10,084 bases of DNA from Candidatus Omnitrophota bacterium (GTDB lineage Bacteria; Omnitrophota; Gorgyraeia; Velamenicoccales; JABMQK01), in assembly GCA_028712915.1 (NCBI GenBank), contig JAQTPJ010000018.1, positions 1 to 10,084 of the forward strand, read 5' to 3'. Below are positions 1 through 8,634 of the stretch, in pieces; positions within the stretch are counted from its first letter, which is position 1; every line of letters begins with the position of its first letter. The notes below the pieces were generated by a model that searched no databases, was not told the origin of the DNA, and saw only the letters and a list, made by a program, of their open reading frames with translations. The position numbers and the translations under genes were made by a program.

Positions 1-1000
1 CTCCTTCTTGGGAAAAACAAACTTTGCTCTGCCAGTTATCTTCGATGATAGCGACGAGCTTATTGCCCGTGTCAATACTGCCTTTGTATGTAAATTGCGG
101 CGTGGGCTTGGCGCCTTTGGCAGCCGCCTGTTTATCCGCGGCTGTTGGCGCCGCGGAAGAATCAGCCTCGCCTTTCTTTAAATCTTTACTCCTGAAAAAA
201 GGATTCCTTTTGGCAAATGATTTCAAATTGATATCCAACGGATAAACGCTGTTTAAATCGAAAATCTCTTTGTTTTTAAACTCTGCCACCTCCTCTAAAG
301 ATACACCCGTAAGAATCCTGGTGGCGACAAGGCTGACTTTAAGCCGCGGCGGCTCAATTGCCACAACGGAAAAATCTTCTATAAAATATACCGGCGCGTG
401 GCTGTTGACCTGCGATAAAATATTCACCAAGGCATCAGTATCAATACTCATCACTATCTGAAGGCTTAATTTATCAAAATCAAAAGATTTTTTTGTCTTA
501 TCAAAAGGCAAAGGCCTTATTGTGGCGACTTCGCATTTGCCCACGCCCACAATAATTCCCATAATGTCATTAATCATTTCTATCTGTTTCAAAAGATAAG
601 GGATATCTTCATCCCTTGGCACATCCATAGAAAAATCTACCGGCGGCAGGACCATTTTTTTAGAAGTAGCCTCCCTCTCTAACAGCTTCATGCTGTTATG
701 AAGCAGCTGGAAAAAATATATGCCTTTGTCCGATACGTCCTGGGGCAAGTCTGCCTTTCCTGTATCAAAAATACCCAATATTTTCTTAAGCTCTTTTTTA
801 TTTGCGGCATCAGCGTCTTTTATTTTCATTATGGCCGCACCTGAAGGCGTGATCCCCGTCTTATCCTGATACTTACGCAGGACTTCTTCCTGTTTAATCA
901 ATTCGTTTCTCAAAACAGCTATCCTCCTTTTGCTATTGAAACGCAAAAAGATAACCAACAATAACAAAACAGCCAAAACTATCAGAATATATTTACGCAC
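1..1000 (-). CDS. pilO: PilO-PilP (GspM-GspC) fusion protein, inner-membrane alignment component, 3' end outside window
   Basis: This frame is open from a GTG at 1000 to the window edge (333 codons). An in-frame TAG lies 12 bases upstream, so GTG is the only start that keeps the membrane anchor. Residues 4-20 are one transmembrane helix (YILIVLAVLLLLVIFL) followed by basic residues and a helical, probably coiled-coil stretch at about 27-46. Residues about 90-240 look like the ferredoxin-like periplasmic domain of PilO/GspM. An Ala/Lys-rich linker (about 278-299) leads to a beta segment from about 300, PQFTYKGSIDTGNKLVAIIE, which resembles the start of the PilP/GspC homology-region domain that contacts the secretin. 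In T2SS/T4P machines these two parts are usually separate proteins linking the GspL/PilN platform to the secretin. The gene overlaps the upstream pilMN gene by 8 bases, which suggests translational coupling. AGGGAAG lies directly before the GTG, closer than usual. The PilO assignment is fairly safe from context; the PilP part is cut off and less certain. Confidence 0.75.
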   Translation of the reverse strand, partial: MRKYILIVLAVLLLLVIFLRFNSKRRIAVLRNELIKQEEVLRKYQDKTGITPSGAAIMKIKDADAANKKELKKILGIFDTGKADLPQDVSDKGIYFFQLLHNSMKLLEREATSKKMVLPPVDFSMDVPRDEDIPYLLKQIEMINDIMGIIVGVGKCEVATIRPLPFDKTKKSFDFDKLSLQIVMSIDTDALVNILSQVNSHAPVYFIEDFSVVAIEPPRLKVSLVATRILTGVSLEEVAEFKNKEIFDLNSVYPLDINLKSFAKRNPFFRSKDLKKGEADSSAAPTAADKQAAAKGAKPTPQFTYKGSIDTGNKLVAIIEDNWQSKVCFSQEG

Positions 1001-2618
1001 CTTCCCTGCCTATTTCGAGTTTAATAATAAAACTGACAATTTCTTCTTTAGTGATTTCGTCTATTTTCACCTTGGAAGAAACCGGTTGTATAGTTTTAAA
1101 ATAACCTGTGTCCTTAAGCCCGGAGATTAACTTATTTATGCCCGCGTAGTTCAAAGACTTGCCGCTTATGGTTAATTCGCCGGCATTATTTTGATAATCC
1201 AGGTTGACAATAAAATTAGCCAGCCAGACATCTTCGGAAATAATCTCGGAAATTTTATACATAATGCGGCTTACGATGTTTCTGTTGTTCACGGCTGTAT
1301 TCAACGCCTTCAGTTTTACATCCGTCTTCTCATATTCTTCTTCGAGTCCGTCTATCTGCGGTATTGACTGTTGGCAGATTACGTTTAGTTCTTTTAATTT
1401 GGAGCTCGCTTCTTTAATTTCTTTGCTATAGGAGCCCTTTTGCGCCCATAAAAACACCAACAACCCCACACAGGCAACGATAAGAATGTTGTATGTGTAA
1501 TCTAATTTTATCTTCTGCCAAAAACTCTTTTTGGTTTGTTTGATAAGGTTTAATTTTGTATCGGCCAGGTTTAATCCTGTTAAGGCCAGCCCGACCGCCG
1601 TGGTAAATTCCGAAGACCGTATGCCCAATAAATTTTTCTTGGCTAACAGTTTTTTATCTTTTACAGGAATTTTGTTTAAGGGATAGACGTAACGCGCAGG
1701 CATATTCAAGGCCTCCGCCAGAAACTTCTCCAACCCCGCGTACAGCGAACCGCTGCCGCTAAGCAATATTTCATCTATCTTTTTATGCGTCGTATCTTTT
1801 GCGCCTGACGCGCTTGTTTGCAGATAATAATAATTAAAAGCCTTGTCCAGTTCCACAGACACATCTTTCATCAAGGCAACCAATGAATCATCAGGGCTAC
1901 CGGAAAAATTATTATCCTGCGATAACATATTTTGCTTATATTCGTAAGCCTCCTTGGCTGACACGCCCAATTTCTTGGATATCGCGTCTATGAATTTATC
2001 TTCCCCTAAAGGCAAAGTCCTCGACCAGAAATTATCTTTGTCGTCGAATATGAACACCTGCGTCTTCTGGGAAGCAATGTCTACCAAGGCATAGCGCCTG
2101 CCGCCGGCTAAGTCGGTATTGAATTTCAAACAATTATATGCGGCCAATATATCTAAAGTAATGGAGTCAATAACAAAGCCGTTCGACTGCTCGAACATCT
2201 TCAGCTTATCCAAAACAACTTCCTTCTTCGCCGCCACAGACAAAACATCATTATTGATTTCTTTAGGGTTATAACGCAAAGTCATATAGTCCCAGAGGCA
2301 ATTCTCCAGCGGCAAAAATAAATTTTTCTTTAATTCGTCTTTTACCAACTCTTTGAATCTTTTTGCGCCTCTGGTTTTTACGGAAATAATTTTTAGAAAC
2401 GCCTCTTCGGCGGATATGGAAAGGCAAATGGGGATATTGGGTTTTAGCTGGTTATTTTTAAAAATAGCCTTTATTAAATTTATAATTTCGTACTGGTTGG
2501 AACCCTGCGGCACTTCTATTACATCTAACTTTAACAGCTCAACATTCCTGCCTTTTAAGGAAATATTGGCTAGTTTTATATCTCTTTGCCCTACGGCTAA
2601 TCCGATTACGTTTTTCAT
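993..2618 (-). CDS. pilM: PilM-PilN fusion (GspL-like) assembly-platform protein
   Basis: This 541-residue protein joins two pilus-assembly proteins. Residues 1-348 match the actin/FtsA-like PilM fold: an N-terminal strand VIGLAVGQRDIKLA, a second nucleotide-fold strand YALVDIASQKTQVFIF (176-191), a segment TLPLGEDKFIDAISKKLGVS with EAYEYK after it (201-228), the LLSGSGSLYAGLEKFL loop (285-300), and SSEFTTAVGLALTG (335-348). Residues 355-361 (KLNLIKQ) correspond to the N-terminal INLL-type motif by which PilN binds PilM. A transmembrane helix follows (about 374-391), then a coiled coil (about 395-440), then a periplasmic ferredoxin-like domain (about 460-538). This cytoplasmic actin-like plus periplasmic order is that of GspL, the T2SS protein that holds the ATPase GspE at the membrane. 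The gene lies 35 bases after a small MerR-type gene and overlaps the PilO-like gene. No Shine-Dalgarno sequence is visible before its ATG. Confidence 0.85.
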   Translation of the reverse strand: MKNVIGLAVGQRDIKLANISLKGRNVELLKLDVIEVPQGSNQYEIINLIKAIFKNNQLKPNIPICLSISAEEAFLKIISVKTRGAKRFKELVKDELKKNLFLPLENCLWDYMTLRYNPKEINNDVLSVAAKKEVVLDKLKMFEQSNGFVIDSITLDILAAYNCLKFNTDLAGGRRYALVDIASQKTQVFIFDDKDNFWSRTLPLGEDKFIDAISKKLGVSAKEAYEYKQNMLSQDNNFSGSPDDSLVALMKDVSVELDKAFNYYYLQTSASGAKDTTHKKIDEILLSGSGSLYAGLEKFLAEALNMPARYVYPLNKIPVKDKKLLAKKNLLGIRSSEFTTAVGLALTGLNLADTKLNLIKQTKKSFWQKIKLDYTYNILIVACVGLLVFLWAQKGSYSKEIKEASSKLKELNVICQQSIPQIDGLEEEYEKTDVKLKALNTAVNNRNIVSRIMYKISEIISEDVWLANFIVNLDYQNNAGELTISGKSLNYAGINKLISGLKDTGYFKTIQPVSSKVKIDEITKEEIVSFIIKLEIGREGA

Positions 2619-2653: not shown

Positions 2654-2845
2654 TTACTTCCTGCCTATAATCTTTTTTAATGATTCTATATCGCTGGCAG
2701 TATATTCTCTGCGCTCGTTAATGAGATTTCTCTTTGCCCTGGGAAAGATCCTTTTCTTCTCATATCTTAGCAGCGTCTGCTTAGATATCCCCAGAGCCTG
2801 CGCTGTCTCATTCGCAGAAAAATATTCGTTTCTCATCTCTACCAT
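2654..2845 (-). CDS. Short MerR-type helix-turn-helix DNA-binding protein
   Basis: This 63-residue protein is essentially only a winged-helix DNA-binding domain of the MerR superfamily. The helix-turn-helix lies at about residues 9-30 (FSANETAQALGISKQTLLRY), followed by EKKRIFPRAKR and a wing ending in REYTASDIESLKKII. The Y/F-S-x-x-E-x-A-x-x-L-G-I-S-x-x-T-L-x-R-Y pattern and the YT-x-x-D-I-x-x-L end are typical. The dimerisation helix and effector-binding domain of full-length MerR proteins are absent, so no sensed ligand can be named. The first ATG is preferred because GGAGG (2852-2856) stands 6 bases upstream; a second ATG at codon 4 is poorly spaced. It is the first gene after a strong promoter-like sequence and precedes pilMN by 35 bases, so it may regulate its own pilus operon (inference). 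A xis/excisionase-like role is possible but has no supporting context. Confidence 0.8.
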   Translation of the reverse strand: MVEMRNEYFSANETAQALGISKQTLLRYEKKRIFPRAKRNLINERREYTASDIESLKKIIGRK

Positions 2846-3255: not shown

Positions 3256-6200
3256 CTACCTTTCGATGATAGTCTTGATTTCTTGCTGAGCTATAACTCT
3301 ATCTGCATCAAGCACTTGCGCTCTTGCTATAATCTCAAATACATTGGAACGCACTGTAACATAATTAGACAAGGCGCCTAACTGGCTGGTATCGCCGCCA
3401 AAGACATTTGATAAGAATAAATCGCCAACTCCTTTGTATATTCCATCTTTGTTGCCAAAAGGCCTTCCTTTTATTATGTCGCTAGCTGACTGTTGCGTTA
3501 CATTTGGTAAAGATAATAAAACTTCCTGAGGCGCCGTATTAATATTAATGCGGCCATAAACATTCTGCCCGGGATCTAATCTTAAGGAATAAAAATGCGC
3601 TATCTCGCTCTGGGATTCATTCTGTAATTTAATTTCCAGTACATTATCTTCTGTGCCATTGGGTTTATCTGAGCCAATGTTTATTACTCCGCAAAAAGCC
3701 AACCCTTCCTCATTGGGAAGTATTCCCTGAGATAAAACTTGCCATGAACCATCTGCCTTTTTATAACTTACTGTTAGCGCTTCATTGAATTCTCCGCTGA
3801 TGGTTAAAAAATAATCGCCGTTTTCTAAATCTTCCCACTTCCACACGCCTTCTTCTTTTGGCGTATCGCTATAAAAACCTTTGCTTACGCCAGAAATTTC
3901 TATCCAGCCGGATACGTTATGTTCTTTAGGAGAAAACAAAATCCCCGAAAGAGTCAAAGAATCTGTAATCAAACTCAAATCTTTTAAGACCTCTTCTCTT
4001 TCTTCGCTGTCGGTATATCTTTCCCAGTTATAAGTTTTAGGGACATACATTAAATCAGAAAGCACCGTTATGGGAGCATTCCTTACAATAACTTCATGTA
4101 TATCGTGGTCGTAGAATTCATCCTCCTGCATTCCTAAATTATCATTTACCCTGCCGGGGGTTCCGCCGCTTAAATCGCTCGTCGCAAACCAACCGTCAAA
4201 TTCAGAATTCCTATTGCTGTCTGTTTGCTCCGTAGGGTCGCCGCGCTCTAAAGAAGAATAATTTGAGACCTGCGAGCTCAAATACTCAGCTGCGTCAACT
4301 ATCAGCCCTTTTTCATTTCTTAAAACGATAAAATTCTCCCCTTCAACGGGAACATCTTTTAAAAAATCAAAATCCCTATCCAGCGTCCTTAAAAAATCCA
4401 ACTGCACGGATTTCTGAACACCCCATGTATCAACAAAAGCTATATGGTTTGAGGAAAGGCCGTTCGCCGTATCATCTTTATCCACGCATAAGACCAAATA
4501 ATCATAAGGGGAAATCGTCGTGCCCTGCGGGATAAAAGCTATGGCCGCTTCCTGCCCTGTGGTTTCCACTGCCCATCCACTAAGATTAAAACTATTATTA
4601 CTGATATTTAATAATTCTATATATTCCGCATCCGGCTGCTGCGAAAGAATTATGCCTTTAAAATAACATGTTTTATCCCTGAGGTTATTCTGAATTGTTA
4701 CAACCAGCTGGTTAGAACTTGCGTAAACCGTCTCTGATTCCGTAAAGTAATCTCCGTCCCTCATGGAACTTTGAGTCCTTCCGTTTATTTCCACGTCGCC
4801 GACAAATTCACCAGTCTGGCCGGATACCCTCAAATAGTAATAGCCGTTAGGAATGCCCGTAAAAATCCACCTGCCTTCGCCCTGCTGTCCTGATTGCGAG
4901 TCGGCATTTACAAACATGGAAGACTGCCATACCCATGCGCCGCCTGGCCCTTGTGTTGCAACGGTATTTTTTTCTATCTTAGGTGATACCATTATTTCAT
5001 TTATGCGTATAGCTTCCACCCCGTGCACCTCTTTTGATAAAAGCGCGGTGCTTTCGCTGACCTCTTCAGGGACTAATTCTATAGATGAAAAATAACAAGT
5101 CTGGCCAAAATCTTCATTATTTTCAATTGATATGCTAAATACTCCTCCCGCTACAGTTACTTTTCTGTTTTCATTCATGACAAAAGCGTCGCCGTTTTGC
5201 ATGCTACTCTGGGTCTTACCTAGGATTTTCACATCGCCTATAGGATCGTCTTCTATGCCGTAAATATAACAATAGTATTCTCCGTCGGAGAAATCAAGGT
5301 TATACCATGTCCACACGCCGGTGCCTCCGGGGATATCGCACTCATAGTGATTATTGGCCCATATCCAACTGCCGCTGGCCTGACTGGATTCGGATGATAA
5401 GAGATTATAGTGCTTATATACTTTGGTGCGGCTCAGATTCCTGTCTAAACTATCTATCGTATTTACTGCCTTCTGCCACGGCGAGCTCACGCCCTTATCC
5501 AGCATAATTTTTATAAGATTATCCGGTTTTATATAATTAATATTCTGCCGGATAGAACCTTCTGCGTCGCGTTCGTGGTCTTTTGAGGAAACCGTAATAA
5601 AACCGGATATATCTTTGAAATTATCACTAGTAATGCCCTCTATCTTTTTAAGTTCATCCACCACCACAAACGGACGGTCATCGCCCCTAGGTTTCTCTAT
5701 TGAGAATTCCTGCGGCTCATCAACGCCTTCATTGGCCTCATCAACAATACCATCGCCATCGTTATCCAGGGAATCGCTCTCTAGGCTTGCCTTATTGGAA
5801 TTGTCGTCGGTATTTGCGACTCCAGGCTTCTGGTCCGACCCGTACCTATACTTAAGTATCCCATCGGTAATGCTCTGCCCGCTTAACCCAACGCTGTCAA
5901 AAAATTTCCTGATAATTGCTTCATCGCCATTGATATTTACCTTTGCCGCTTCATCACGGACCAATACGGCATATCTGCCTATATTGTTTCCCTGGTCGTC
6001 TTGTATGTTGAACCATTTCGATTCTTTCGTCCCGTCATCATCAATATCCACGTCGCTGCCGGCGAAAACGCTGCGCCAAAGCTCATCTTGCGAATCCAGT
6101 TTATTCGCCCCAGCGTCAAACTCAAGCACCCCCTTTGCGTAATTAATGCCTGCCTCAGCTAAATATTTAGTCTGAAGCCTGCCCATATAAGAACTGATGC

Positions 6201-6321
6201 CGCGCAACTGCGTCTGGCTCATATATAAAAAACTTAAGCCTATTATAGAAGCTACTCCTAAAATGGACAGGACTAATAGAATAGCCTGTCCTTTTTCTTT
6301 ACTAATTAACCTGTTTATCAT
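3256..6321 (-). CDS. gspK: Giant GspK-like minor pseudopilin with lamin-tail domain and three beta modules
   Basis: This 1021-residue protein begins with a prepilin-like segment: KEKG (8-11), then QAILLVLSILGVASIIGLSF as the membrane/pilus-core helix. It lacks Glu at +5, a hallmark of GspK. Residues about 100-295 show GspK-type blocks (AAKVNINGDEAIIRKFF, then PFVVVDELKKIEGI), and the C-terminus (923-1021) has GRININTAPQEVLLSLP and the closing VTVRSNVFEIIARAQVLD. Together these about 400 residues match normal GspK length; about 620 residues are inserted. The insertion holds three Trp/Tyr-rich modules (about 317-417, 461-560, 804-917) and a lamin-tail domain (RINEIMVSPK at 439-448, then AEYIELLNISNN from 565 to about 727) interrupted by module 2. 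Asp-rich DxDxDG-like loops at 90-97 and 186-194 could bind calcium. In T2SS, GspK caps the pseudopilus with GspI and GspJ. The start is 8 bases after gspI with no Shine-Dalgarno sequence, suggesting coupling. The GspK call is strong; the role of the inserted domains is unknown. Confidence 0.8.
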   Translation of the reverse strand: MINRLISKEKGQAILLVLSILGVASIIGLSFLYMSQTQLRGISSYMGRLQTKYLAEAGINYAKGVLEFDAGANKLDSQDELWRSVFAGSDVDIDDDGTKESKWFNIQDDQGNNIGRYAVLVRDEAAKVNINGDEAIIRKFFDSVGLSGQSITDGILKYRYGSDQKPGVANTDDNSNKASLESDSLDNDGDGIVDEANEGVDEPQEFSIEKPRGDDRPFVVVDELKKIEGITSDNFKDISGFITVSSKDHERDAEGSIRQNINYIKPDNLIKIMLDKGVSSPWQKAVNTIDSLDRNLSRTKVYKHYNLLSSESSQASGSWIWANNHYECDIPGGTGVWTWYNLDFSDGEYYCYIYGIEDDPIGDVKILGKTQSSMQNGDAFVMNENRKVTVAGGVFSISIENNEDFGQTCYFSSIELVPEEVSESTALLSKEVHGVEAIRINEIMVSPKIEKNTVATQGPGGAWVWQSSMFVNADSQSGQQGEGRWIFTGIPNGYYYLRVSGQTGEFVGDVEINGRTQSSMRDGDYFTESETVYASSNQLVVTIQNNLRDKTCYFKGIILSQQPDAEYIELLNISNNSFNLSGWAVETTGQEAAIAFIPQGTTISPYDYLVLCVDKDDTANGLSSNHIAFVDTWGVQKSVQLDFLRTLDRDFDFLKDVPVEGENFIVLRNEKGLIVDAAEYLSSQVSNYSSLERGDPTEQTDSNRNSEFDGWFATSDLSGGTPGRVNDNLGMQEDEFYDHDIHEVIVRNAPITVLSDLMYVPKTYNWERYTDSEEREEVLKDLSLITDSLTLSGILFSPKEHNVSGWIEISGVSKGFYSDTPKEEGVWKWEDLENGDYFLTISGEFNEALTVSYKKADGSWQVLSQGILPNEEGLAFCGVINIGSDKPNGTEDNVLEIKLQNESQSEIAHFYSLRLDPGQNVYGRININTAPQEVLLSLPNVTQQSASDIIKGRPFGNKDGIYKGVGDLFLSNVFGGDTSQLGALSNYVTVRSNVFEIIARAQVLDADRVIAQQEIKTIIER

Positions 6322-6329
6322 GCTGGGAA

Positions 6330-6716
6330 TTATTTAAAATAGGTAATGAACGTCTTCTTCCTCTGATTTTCTCCCTCGGACCAGAGCACATCCAGCTGCA
6401 CCTTCTTTAAAACTATATTCTCCTCGGTAGTATAATCCGTAACTTTAACTGTCCAATTGAAAATATTCTCCTGCCCCGTGGAATCAGCAACCGGCTCTGC
6501 GGAGGTTTTTAACTCCTCCAGCTTTTTCTGGGCGAAAAATGATACGCTGCTTAGGGTCTGTGTCTGCCTTGCAACGCGCATCCCCAAAGGAAAGATGGAA
6601 TAGATAAAAGAAATGCCCATCGTCAATATAAAAAAGGCGATGAGCGCTTCTATCAAGGTAAAACCTTGACGGCTTATTGGTTTCACAAACAGCTTTCTAT
6701 AAAGACGGAATATCAT
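6330..6716 (-). CDS. gspI: GspI/PilV-type minor pseudopilin
   Basis: This 128-residue protein has a class III prepilin signal: a basic leader of 18 residues ending SRQG, cleavage expected between Gly18 and Phe19, then FTLIEALIAFFILTMGISFI with the conserved Glu at +5. The mature globular part is small and contains AQKKLEELK, matching the region of GspI that follows the N-terminal helix. GspI is the organising member of the GspI-J-K tip complex of the T2SS pseudopilus; PilV plays a comparable part in type IV pili. It sits between gspF and the gspK-like gene, 36 bases after the former and 8 before the latter. No Shine-Dalgarno sequence is visible before the ATG, so the start is chosen because it gives a normal basic leader. 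Confidence 0.8.
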   Translation of the reverse strand: MIFRLYRKLFVKPISRQGFTLIEALIAFFILTMGISFIYSIFPLGMRVARQTQTLSSVSFFAQKKLEELKTSAEPVADSTGQENIFNWTVKVTDYTTEENIVLKKVQLDVLWSEGENQRKKTFITYFK

Positions 6717-6752: not shown

Positions 6753-7814
6753 CTACTTTACTAAACTTCCCATGGTGAATATAGGGAAGAACAAGGCGAT
6801 AACAATAAAACCTACGATTACACCCATTGTTACAATCAATAGCGGTTCTAACAGCGACGTCAAACTCGTAAGGGTTCCTTCTGCCTCTTCTTCGTATTCG
6901 TCGGCCACCTGGAGAAGTATTTTATCTAATTGCCCGGATTCTTCTCCCACGCTGACCATCCTGGTCAAGATTTTCGGGAATATCTCATGTTGCTCCATAG
7001 AACTGGATACCGTCGCCCCTTTTTCTATATTCTTGTTTGCGTCATTTATCGCTTCGGCAAACAAAGAATTCTCGCTGGCATCAGCCGTAAGCTTTAAAGC
7101 GTTAAGAATAGATACTCCCGACATAAGAAGCGTGCCTAAGAGCCTTGCAAAACGCGCAATCTCAATATTTAACACTAGATCACCAAGCACGGGAAGGCGC
7201 AGCCTCGTCTTATCTAAAAAAGTTTTGACTGCTGGTTTTCTTCCGGCAACCTTAAAAAAAACTATAAAAAATACAAAGATAAACGGTATAAGATACCAAA
7301 AGCGGTTAAATACTTTGCTTATGGATAACAATATCTGTGTTGCGCCGGGAAGCTCTCCACCCAGATCGTCGAATATCTTGGCAAAACTCGGTACCACGAA
7401 CGCGGTAAGCACAGTTATAATCACAACCGCTATAATCAAAACAAAAGCAGGGTACATCATGGCAAACTTAATCCTCTGCCTTAGCCTGTAGGTGTGATTT
7501 AAAAAATGGTCTACTCTTTTTAATACCGCGGGGAGCAAGCCTCCTACTTCTCCAGCCTTTACCATATTCACAAACAAATTGGAGAATATATCGGGATATT
7601 CGCTCAAGGCCAAAGATAACGAACTCCCTTCTTCCACGCGTTTTATAACATCTTTTATTACTTCTCTAAAATAATTCTCCGGCATCTGCTCGTAAATAGT
7701 GGTCAAGGATTTAATCAAAGGCGTGCCTGCGCCGATAAGAATAGAAAGCTGCCTTGTAAAATGAAGCAATTGCCTCATCGATGTCCTTTTTGAAAACGGT
7801 AATTGAAAAGCCAT
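6753..7814 (-). CDS. gspF: GspF/PilC-type inner-membrane platform protein, short form
   Basis: This 353-residue polytopic membrane protein has the two repeated GspF domains. Repeat 1 has LHFTRQLSILIGAGTPLIKS (17-36) and VKAGEVGGLL (85-94). Repeat 2 has ARFARLLGTLLMSGVSILNA (220-239) and VSVGEESGQL (287-296). Membrane helices lie near 116-142, 172-190 and 322-346, ending EPLLIVTMGVIVGFIVIALF. GspF/PilC links the ATPase to the growing pseudopilus and is thought to help lift pseudopilin subunits from the membrane. Usual family members have about 400 residues; this one lacks the first about 50, the YxAxDxxGK-type cytoplasmic segment. The ATG is preceded by AAGGAG five bases away, so the short form is probably the real start. 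It follows the inverted repeat and precedes gspI. Confidence 0.92.
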   Translation of the reverse strand: MAFQLPFSKRTSMRQLLHFTRQLSILIGAGTPLIKSLTTIYEQMPENYFREVIKDVIKRVEEGSSLSLALSEYPDIFSNLFVNMVKAGEVGGLLPAVLKRVDHFLNHTYRLRQRIKFAMMYPAFVLIIAVVIITVLTAFVVPSFAKIFDDLGGELPGATQILLSISKVFNRFWYLIPFIFVFFIVFFKVAGRKPAVKTFLDKTRLRLPVLGDLVLNIEIARFARLLGTLLMSGVSILNALKLTADASENSLFAEAINDANKNIEKGATVSSSMEQHEIFPKILTRMVSVGEESGQLDKILLQVADEYEEEAEGTLTSLTSLLEPLLIVTMGVIVGFIVIALFFPIFTMGSLVK

Positions 7815-8016: not shown

Positions 8017-8634
8017 TCAATACTTAGTCCTTATGGGTAATTCTATTGTCGTCTCAAAAATCTCTTTATTATCAGGATAATCTGTATTTTCTGCGCCTAG
8101 AGAAATTTTTATTGCCTGCGGCGGCGTGCCTTGTTGTGCGCCGCCCTGGCGGCTATCCCAGCTTTCCAGCCAGTTGCCGCTACTATCCATATACCTGAAA
8201 TCTAAAGACAATACATGAATGGCTATCATATCCTTGGAATCATAAGTGTCAAAGTTAAAATCCGCTTTATCCTGTCGGGAAAAAAATATTTTTTGCTCTG
8301 CCGCGTTATATTCATAACCCATCTCAGCTAAATCCCCCTCTGAACTTCTGGCAGAAGCAGAAATAAAATAAAATTTATCCTTGGAGCCGAAACAATAAAT
8401 GCCCCTCGATGTTGCGACAAAAAGGCTGGAGATGCTCCCAGTCATACGGCTAAAAACCAGCCTAGTTGACTGCTGCCTCTGGGTAGAGCTATACCCTCTT
8501 TTCCAATAGTTAAGAACACCTACGAAGATACTTGCCACCATAGCTGTAATCATAAGCATAATGGACATGGCGATTAATATCTCTACAAGGGTAAACGCCT
8601 TCCTGTTTACAGCATTTCTCATGAGTCTTATCAT
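8017..8634 (-). CDS. gspJ: GspJ-type minor pseudopilin
   Basis: This 205-residue protein has a short basic leader ending NRKA, then FTLVEILIAMSIMLMITAMV with Glu at +5. Cleavage is expected between Ala13 and Phe14; Ala replaces the usual Gly at -1, which prepilin peptidases can tolerate. The later part fits GspJ: a beta-rich body, LDFRYMDSSGNWLESW, then TPPQAIKISL near the C-terminus, the place where GspJ proteins carry a conserved P-x-x-I/V-x-hydrophobic strand. GspJ binds GspI and GspK in the pseudopilus tip complex. It begins 39 bases after lnt and has no clear Shine-Dalgarno sequence; a second ATG at codon 5 would also leave a usable leader. It is separated from gspF by the inverted repeat rather than being next to gspI as in many operons. 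Confidence 0.78.
   Translation of the reverse strand: MIRLMRNAVNRKAFTLVEILIAMSIMLMITAMVASIFVGVLNYWKRGYSSTQRQQSTRLVFSRMTGSISSLFVATSRGIYCFGSKDKFYFISASARSSEGDLAEMGYEYNAAEQKIFFSRQDKADFNFDTYDSKDMIAIHVLSLDFRYMDSSGNWLESWDSRQGGAQQGTPPQAIKISLGAENTDYPDNKEIFETTIELPIRTKY

Follow-up and report, generated by a model that had tools for sequence, protein, structure and literature searches.

What would a type II secretion system (T2SS) do with a tip protein about three times as long as its known counterparts? This question is raised by a gene from Candidatus Omnitrophota bacterium, a member of a little-known bacterial phylum; cargo recognition by type II secretion machines and the role of their tip complex are still poorly understood. 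The window, i.e., the whole stretch of 10,084 nucleotides analyzed (JAQTPJ010000018.1), is one contig (C55) of a metagenome-assembled genome (MAG) of 1.06 Mb in 187 contigs that is 76% complete (G000). On its reverse strand, the open reading frame (ORF) at 3256..6321 encodes a GspK-type minor pseudopilin of 1021 residues with an inserted head (headed GspK). As the best explanation of the data as a whole, we propose, with a probability of about 0.5, that headed GspK is a dedicated tip receptor of a T2SS-like machine and that its most likely ligand is an immunoglobulin (Ig)-like partner protein.

A sequence-only reading had described GspK-like ends separated by about 620 residues, and this was confirmed. 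The N- and C-terminal blocks jointly build one GspK fold. The N-terminal block (residues 1–249; 5575..6321, reverse strand) matched positions 2–211 of NF037980 and, in the structure model, consists of a long helix (5–72) and beta strands (87–123); it probably includes the first part of the alpha-domain. The C-terminal block (residues 918–1021; 3259..3570, reverse strand), with an INxNTA motif, helices and the last two strands, matched NF037980 positions 212–288 and also PF12836 over the cut-off, while Pfam T2SSK (PF03934) was just missed, at 23.7 vs. 24.2 bits; three relatives (P0021, P0024 and P0025) exceeded it. The head is inserted at NF037980 211/212, ahead of the INxNTA helical block. An extra helical stretch beyond the NF037980 match (residues 250–299; 5425..5574, reverse strand; model helices 266–276 and 281–292) aligned in relatives. 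According to passages of PMC9934059, known K subunits cap the HIJK tip complex, to which a likely role in effector presentation is ascribed, and have no glutamate at mature position 5. In headed GspK this position is leucine (QAILL after KEKG, taken as the likely cleavage site). The N-terminal methylation motif PF07963 gave no match in headed GspK at E up to 1, with PilX_N (0.0034) detected instead, and PF21687 (T2SSK_1st) had no match in the source genome. A single-sequence search of PDB chains with headed GspK found no GspK, and a profile search matched XcpX weakly (E 0.0045). The helix-hairpin-helix (HHH)-type motif of the C-terminal block is ordinary for GspK, since the XcpX sequence matches it too; the likeness of the N- and C-terminal blocks by HHalign (E 8.9e-7) is of this HHH type and is no evidence for the head. 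Acidic D/N/G-rich loops (DVDIDDDG and DNDGDG, among others; residues ~85–97 and 163–205) are kept in the family and, judged from their letters, look like calcium loops; the model has low confidence over much of the second. Binding of calcium by XcpX is described in part of PMC6211770.

The head, of about 620 residues, comprises three CBM6/35-like jelly rolls and one lamin tail domain (LTD), all encoded on the reverse strand. Repeat r1 (residues 303–418; 5068..5415), a CBM35/36/6-like jelly roll, precedes the first LTD strand (residues 430–452; 4966..5034), which carries invariant residues and in which the structural match to lamin A/C (3gef_A) starts, at residue 433. Repeat r2 (residues 455–563; 4633..4959), detected by HHalign of residues 448–563 to r1 and r3, is a jelly roll nested in the LTD: it sits between 430–452 and the LTD piece from 564 on, and the LTDs of proteins P0029 and P0088 have no such gap. 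The LTD remainder (residues 564–690; 4252..4632) leads through a linker (residues 691–785; 3967..4251), partly of low confidence (pLDDT <50 at 719–738 and 764–771), to repeat r3 (residues 786–917; 3571..3966), a CBM6/35/36-like jelly roll. The LTD was recognized both by a PF00932 match over the cut-off and by a lamin-type fold; in comparison with other bacterial lamin tail domains, it is split by the jelly roll nested in it and lies within a pseudopilin. The repeats share the jelly-roll fold of CBM6, CBM35 and CBM36, and modules of these families ranked among the top structural matches of r3 and r1, but no Pfam CBM family matched headed GspK at E up to 1. Since r1 matched jelly rolls of insecticidal proteins with scores similar to those for CBMs, its fold names no ligand; the r1 alignment used for folding (A3) had 23 rows, two of which (L066 and L076) proved to be r2 copies. 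The top rows of the whole-protein Foldseek search, large multi-domain beta proteins with a TM-score of at most 0.12, were left out of use, and lower rows for CBM6 (2cdo, 2cdp), lamin B1 (3jt0_A) and an Xcp filament chain (9a1f_T) agreed with the other structural rows.

Headed GspK recurs across the phylum. Some match was found in 24 of 59 genomes near the source (its own included); without its own, nine matches ran through the head, of which eight covered the full length and the ninth was truncated at the end of its contig. Among 384 Omnitrophota genomes, 105 had some match (E up to 1e-6), of which 42 ran through the LTD/r3 region and were counted as head-bearing; the other 63 had N- or C-block matches alone, from ordinary or other GspKs, or, in G322, a fragment at a contig end. 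These 42 genomes belong to the source's class (40) or to other classes (2) and carry 14 family labels. Repeat r1 is not universal, with a gap at this place in G061, G120 and G295, and matches in six more head-bearing genomes (G143, G181, G184, G254, G315 and G383) came in broken pieces. The occurrence of these binding-type beta domains on a GspK frame under so many family labels upholds the earlier view of a beta-rich head that is more than a plain cap.

The head was about as conserved as the frame that carries it. Over 25 sequences (300 pairs), mean pairwise identity was 0.50 for the LTD, 0.48 for r2, 0.43 for r3 and 0.41 for r1, and 0.47 and 0.50 for the N- and C-terminal blocks. Among 89 proteins with both GspK blocks (headed GspK included), two repeats, LTD and r3 were present in 56; one repeat, LTD and r3 in five; LTD and r3 in nine; LTD in seven; no detected LTD in 11; and one was of normal size. 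Therefore, the same GspK blocks carry different heads. In this census, P0074–P0076 were counted as lacking the LTD despite weak Pfam LTD matches below the cut-off, and members of the alignment from which the block profiles were built (A1) match by construction. Head architecture clustered on a tree of the GspK frame; the tree had 55 rows, among them 21 of the 56 two-repeat proteins, and long branches, with 17 of 52 inner branches open. In named records, 32 of 41 related loci were titled Omnitrophota or Omnitrophica, and 21 of the 22 loci tested had both r1 and r2 (20 titled Omnitrophota or Omnitrophica and one Planctomycetales), L076 having one repeat. The Planctomycetes origin of L070 (SBAZ01000050.1) was rejected: its coordinates and E-value are those of G221, a genome of the source's class, and the title is probably wrong. 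Related LTD-bearing long GspKs outside Omnitrophota came from records titled Scalindua, Poribacteria and Abyssobacteria, the last two falling in one small phylum sample of three genomes. Some homologues are already named GspK, PulK or lamin tail domain-containing protein in databases.

The head is not shared by all long GspKs of the phylum: none of 20 other GspK-like ORFs (L090–L109) matched any of the r1, LTD, r2 and r3 profiles, and the ten given to Pfam showed no LTD match. Seventeen of them (L093–L109), from other Omnitrophota genomes, are 673–980 residues long, with a GspK-type N-block and long remainders unlike the head; a PA14 domain was present in one of the seven given to Pfam. They form a broader pool of enlarged K-type pilins.

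The family co-occurs almost perfectly with one other protein. Big_13/Ig-like proteins of ~500–660 residues adjoined headed GspK in many relatives, and 25 of 41 loci examined contained one. Counting the partner as present at E <1e-100 over at least positions 110–486 of a 514-position profile, we found it in 42 of the 384 Omnitrophota genomes; 46 of 88 genomes had partial matches alone (best 2e-33) and were not counted. The partner occurred in 41 of the 42 head-bearing genomes (Fisher's p 6e-53, uncorrected for kinship). Outside the head-bearing set, the partner was counted in G322 alone, where a headed-type N-terminal fragment lies at the contig end. Adjacency alone does not explain this link, since only 27 of the 41 head–partner pairs lie within 3 kb, whereas four are farther apart on one contig and ten are on different contigs. 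In a smaller search, the whole partner was detected in four of five head-bearing genomes (all but G002, 71% complete) and in none of five headless ones. A hydrophobic N-terminal stretch suggests that the partner is secreted, and Big_13 matched 14 of 15 members. A C-terminal tail, [VIF]-x-x-[WFY]-[KRE]-x-[EQKD], was likewise seen in 14 of 15 (tryptophan in 11; L050 ends at a contig end) and may be a docking or sorting signal.

Headed GspK belongs to a separate machine with its own secretin and ATPase. In genome G001, the orthologous locus reads lnt, GspJ, GspF, GspI, GspK, MerR, PilMN and GspM, and continues with a secretin bearing TPR repeats, a 3143-residue protein, a GspE-type ATPase with an MshEN domain and a 499-residue Ig-like protein. 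The three parts expected of a T2SS were thus found in one cluster: secretin and ATPase in G001, and GspF in both G001 and the window. In the G028 cluster, TPR matches of the secretin were weak and under cut-offs. A second T2SS lies on the same G001 contig ~37 kb further, with T2SSE and T2SSG matches and a normal GspK of 350 residues, its remaining genes being read from the ORF list only. Contig C71 of the source genome probably continues the cluster of the window. It carries, in this order, a large repeat protein represented by its C-terminal part, two small ORFs, an ATPase of GspE type and an Ig-like protein.

Since a conserved head goes together with one co-occurring, apparently secreted protein, dedicated binding of this partner, either as cargo or as a tip subunit, is the best explanation. 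By analogy with known K subunits, headed GspK would sit at the pseudopilus tip of a distinct machine that is T2SS-like and belongs to the type 4 filaments. Its GspK frame would join a GspI–GspJ–GspK cap, and the nested head of three jelly rolls and an LTD would be presented, probably from within the alpha-domain. The head would bind the Ig-like (Big_13) partner, whose gene lies beside that of GspK or at another place in the genome. Held by the pseudopilus tip in the periplasm, the partner would be brought to the secretin of this machine or displayed there. A bolder version, in which the machine has essentially one dedicated secreted protein, the head is the receptor of an obligate Ig-like partner and head swaps have retuned specificity across Omnitrophota and neighbouring phyla, is tentative.

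Several observations weigh against the proposed tip receptor. Co-occurrence can reflect common membership of one machine without direct contact, and G117 (96% complete) has the head with no long partner match. Headed GspK reached 65.4 bits of the 130 required by the NF037980 equivalog cut-off, and we therefore use the name GspK-type rather than that of a certified equivalog; the normal GspK of G001 also fell short (84.6 bits). A search of four genomes for T2SSG (PF08334) gave no match in the incomplete source genome, and none of the four matches in G001, G028 and G019 adjoined the head gene, the sole G001 match lying in its other T2SS. Gene order was not universal among nine loci compared: L041 had only MerR, PilMN and GspM adjoining, and L047 and L048 had none of the window's neighbours beside the gene. 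In G117, a sigma-70-like gene follows GspK in place of the partner (G117:C1:425824-428859, L120).

Next in likelihood to partner binding comes a glycan adhesin, followed by a structural plug and then by a DNA receptor. As an adhesin, the tip would pass the secretin and its jelly rolls would bind polysaccharides or host surfaces, like the lectin module of Streptococcus sanguinis PilC, a pilin that modelling places at the tip of the pilus, according to parts of PMC9934059. The CBM neighbours of r3 and r1 fit this idea, as do the type 4a pili and giant adhesin-like ORFs reported for Omnitrophota in sections of PMC10066038. However, the CBM-like fold comes without a CBM family match and, for r1, is shared with insecticidal proteins; the partner looks obligate; and a variable adhesin would not be expected to have a head about as conserved as its frame. 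An adhesin is thus rather unlikely, and of the two roles offered by the sequence-only reading, that of specialised substrate receptor, which fits the co-occurrence in 41 of 42 genomes, was retained, while that of surface adhesin is less favoured. The even conservation of head and frame would suit a cap or plug with a structural role, fitted to the secretin or its periplasmic vestibule and in need of no ligand, the partner being a periplasmic or outer-membrane accessory, and so would the TPR repeats on the G001 secretin. Yet a fixed plug would not need a head whose make-up varies between the same GspK blocks, and we consider this improbable.

A DNA receptor of a competence-type filament is more doubtful still. 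Thermus thermophilus ComZ is a GspK-like pilin into which a beta domain is inserted, and it binds DNA, according to part of PMC6561018; the lamin tail domain is mentioned in work on a DNase of bacterial origin that has DNA-binding domains (PMC4486849). In ComZ, however, a beta-solenoid is inserted between the penultimate and last strands, so that both the inserted fold and the insertion point differ from those of headed GspK, and the HHH-type motif is ordinary for GspK. An artefact of assembly or gene calling, or a recent random fusion, might be suspected in a MAG as fragmented as this one, but it is refuted by the full-length homologues in other assemblies, including one on a 1.57 Mb contig, and by the recurrence of neighbouring genes, and deserves practically no credence; this accords with the earlier statement that the gene is no random fusion in a decaying region.

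Modular pilins with extra domains are already well described, and headed GspK resembles them in that its LTD and jelly rolls are not specific to type 4 filaments. S. sanguinis PilB (vWA) and PilC are likewise pilins with added domains of binding type and have been proposed to sit at the tip of the filament, but there the module is grafted via a linker, whereas here it is inserted inside GspK. ComZ shares the GspK-like pilin fold, the large inserted beta domain and a proposed receptor role at the tip, in that case of a competence pilus. Compared with GspK/XcpX/PulK (PDB 3ci0_K, 5vtm_X), headed GspK has its nested LTD/jelly-roll head before the INxNTA block and, in G001, serves a second machine beside another T2SS. 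More than 1,200 modular pilins with 264 architectures were found through IPR012902, according to part of PMC8179133; GspK types such as this one would probably escape that census, given that PF07963 does not match. Type 4a pili are widely reported in an Omnitrophota survey, in whose main text neither 'T2SS' nor 'type II' occurs (PMC10066038), and none of the titles and abstracts brought up by searches of openly licensed PMC literature described the headed GspK family. Headed GspK differs from the known modular pilins in that its carrier is of GspK type, its head is nested and built of LTD and jelly rolls, the same GspK blocks bear different heads among relatives, and a partner co-occurs with it. 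In this natural family, a tip-type protein bearing a large head of binding type is paired with one co-occurring, apparently secreted protein, which provides a defined receptor–ligand hypothesis on cargo choice that is testable with two purified proteins. The modular-pilin idea would extend to GspK-type tip subunits, which a census by the N-methylation signature would probably miss.

The remaining genes of the window share the strand of headed GspK, in the order apolipoprotein N-acyltransferase-like, GspJ-like, GspF, GspI-like, headed GspK, MerR-type helix-turn-helix (HTH), PilM–PilN fusion and GspM-like. The GspJ-like minor pseudopilin (8017..8634, reverse strand) matched N_methyl (3.8e-6) and, under the cut-off, T2SSJ (4.8e-4). 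GspF, the inner-membrane platform protein (6753..7814, reverse strand), matched T2SSF (3.7e-61) and TIGR02120 (1.7e-106, under the cut-off). The GspI-like minor pseudopilin (6330..6716, reverse strand; N_methyl 1.9e-6), past whose end headed GspK begins after 8 bases, was named by its best NCBIfam match and position, with XpsI (4.9e-8), ComGF (4e-7) and PilV (8.4e-7) each under its own cut-off. The PilM–PilN fusion (993..2618, reverse strand; PF11104 2.1e-21, PF05137 6e-6) is part of the inner-membrane platform, and the GspM-like gene (2..1000, reverse strand), cut by the contig end, matched T2SSM_b just under (2.3e-4) and GspM_XpsM under (1.7e-7) the cut-off.

The source genome gave five secretin matches and 12 T2SSE matches, some of the latter partial, which points to a large number of type 4 filament machines for a genome this small. 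Giant proteins with VGIGT-type repeats precede the ATPase, one of 3143 residues in G001 (L110:2558-11986) and one present as a 779-residue C-terminal part on C71 (L119:6480-8816). The former has a HINT domain and the latter ends in a Peptidase_S74 chaperone and YadA-head repeats; such a protein could be a further cargo or surface fibre of the machine. Between GspK and PilM–PilN lies the 63-residue MerR-type HTH protein (2654..2845, reverse strand; PF13411 1e-6), possibly an embedded regulator of the machine. In 33 named-record loci, some of them cut short, PilMN was found in 18 and a MerR-type relative, 55–79% identical and downstream of GspK, in 14.
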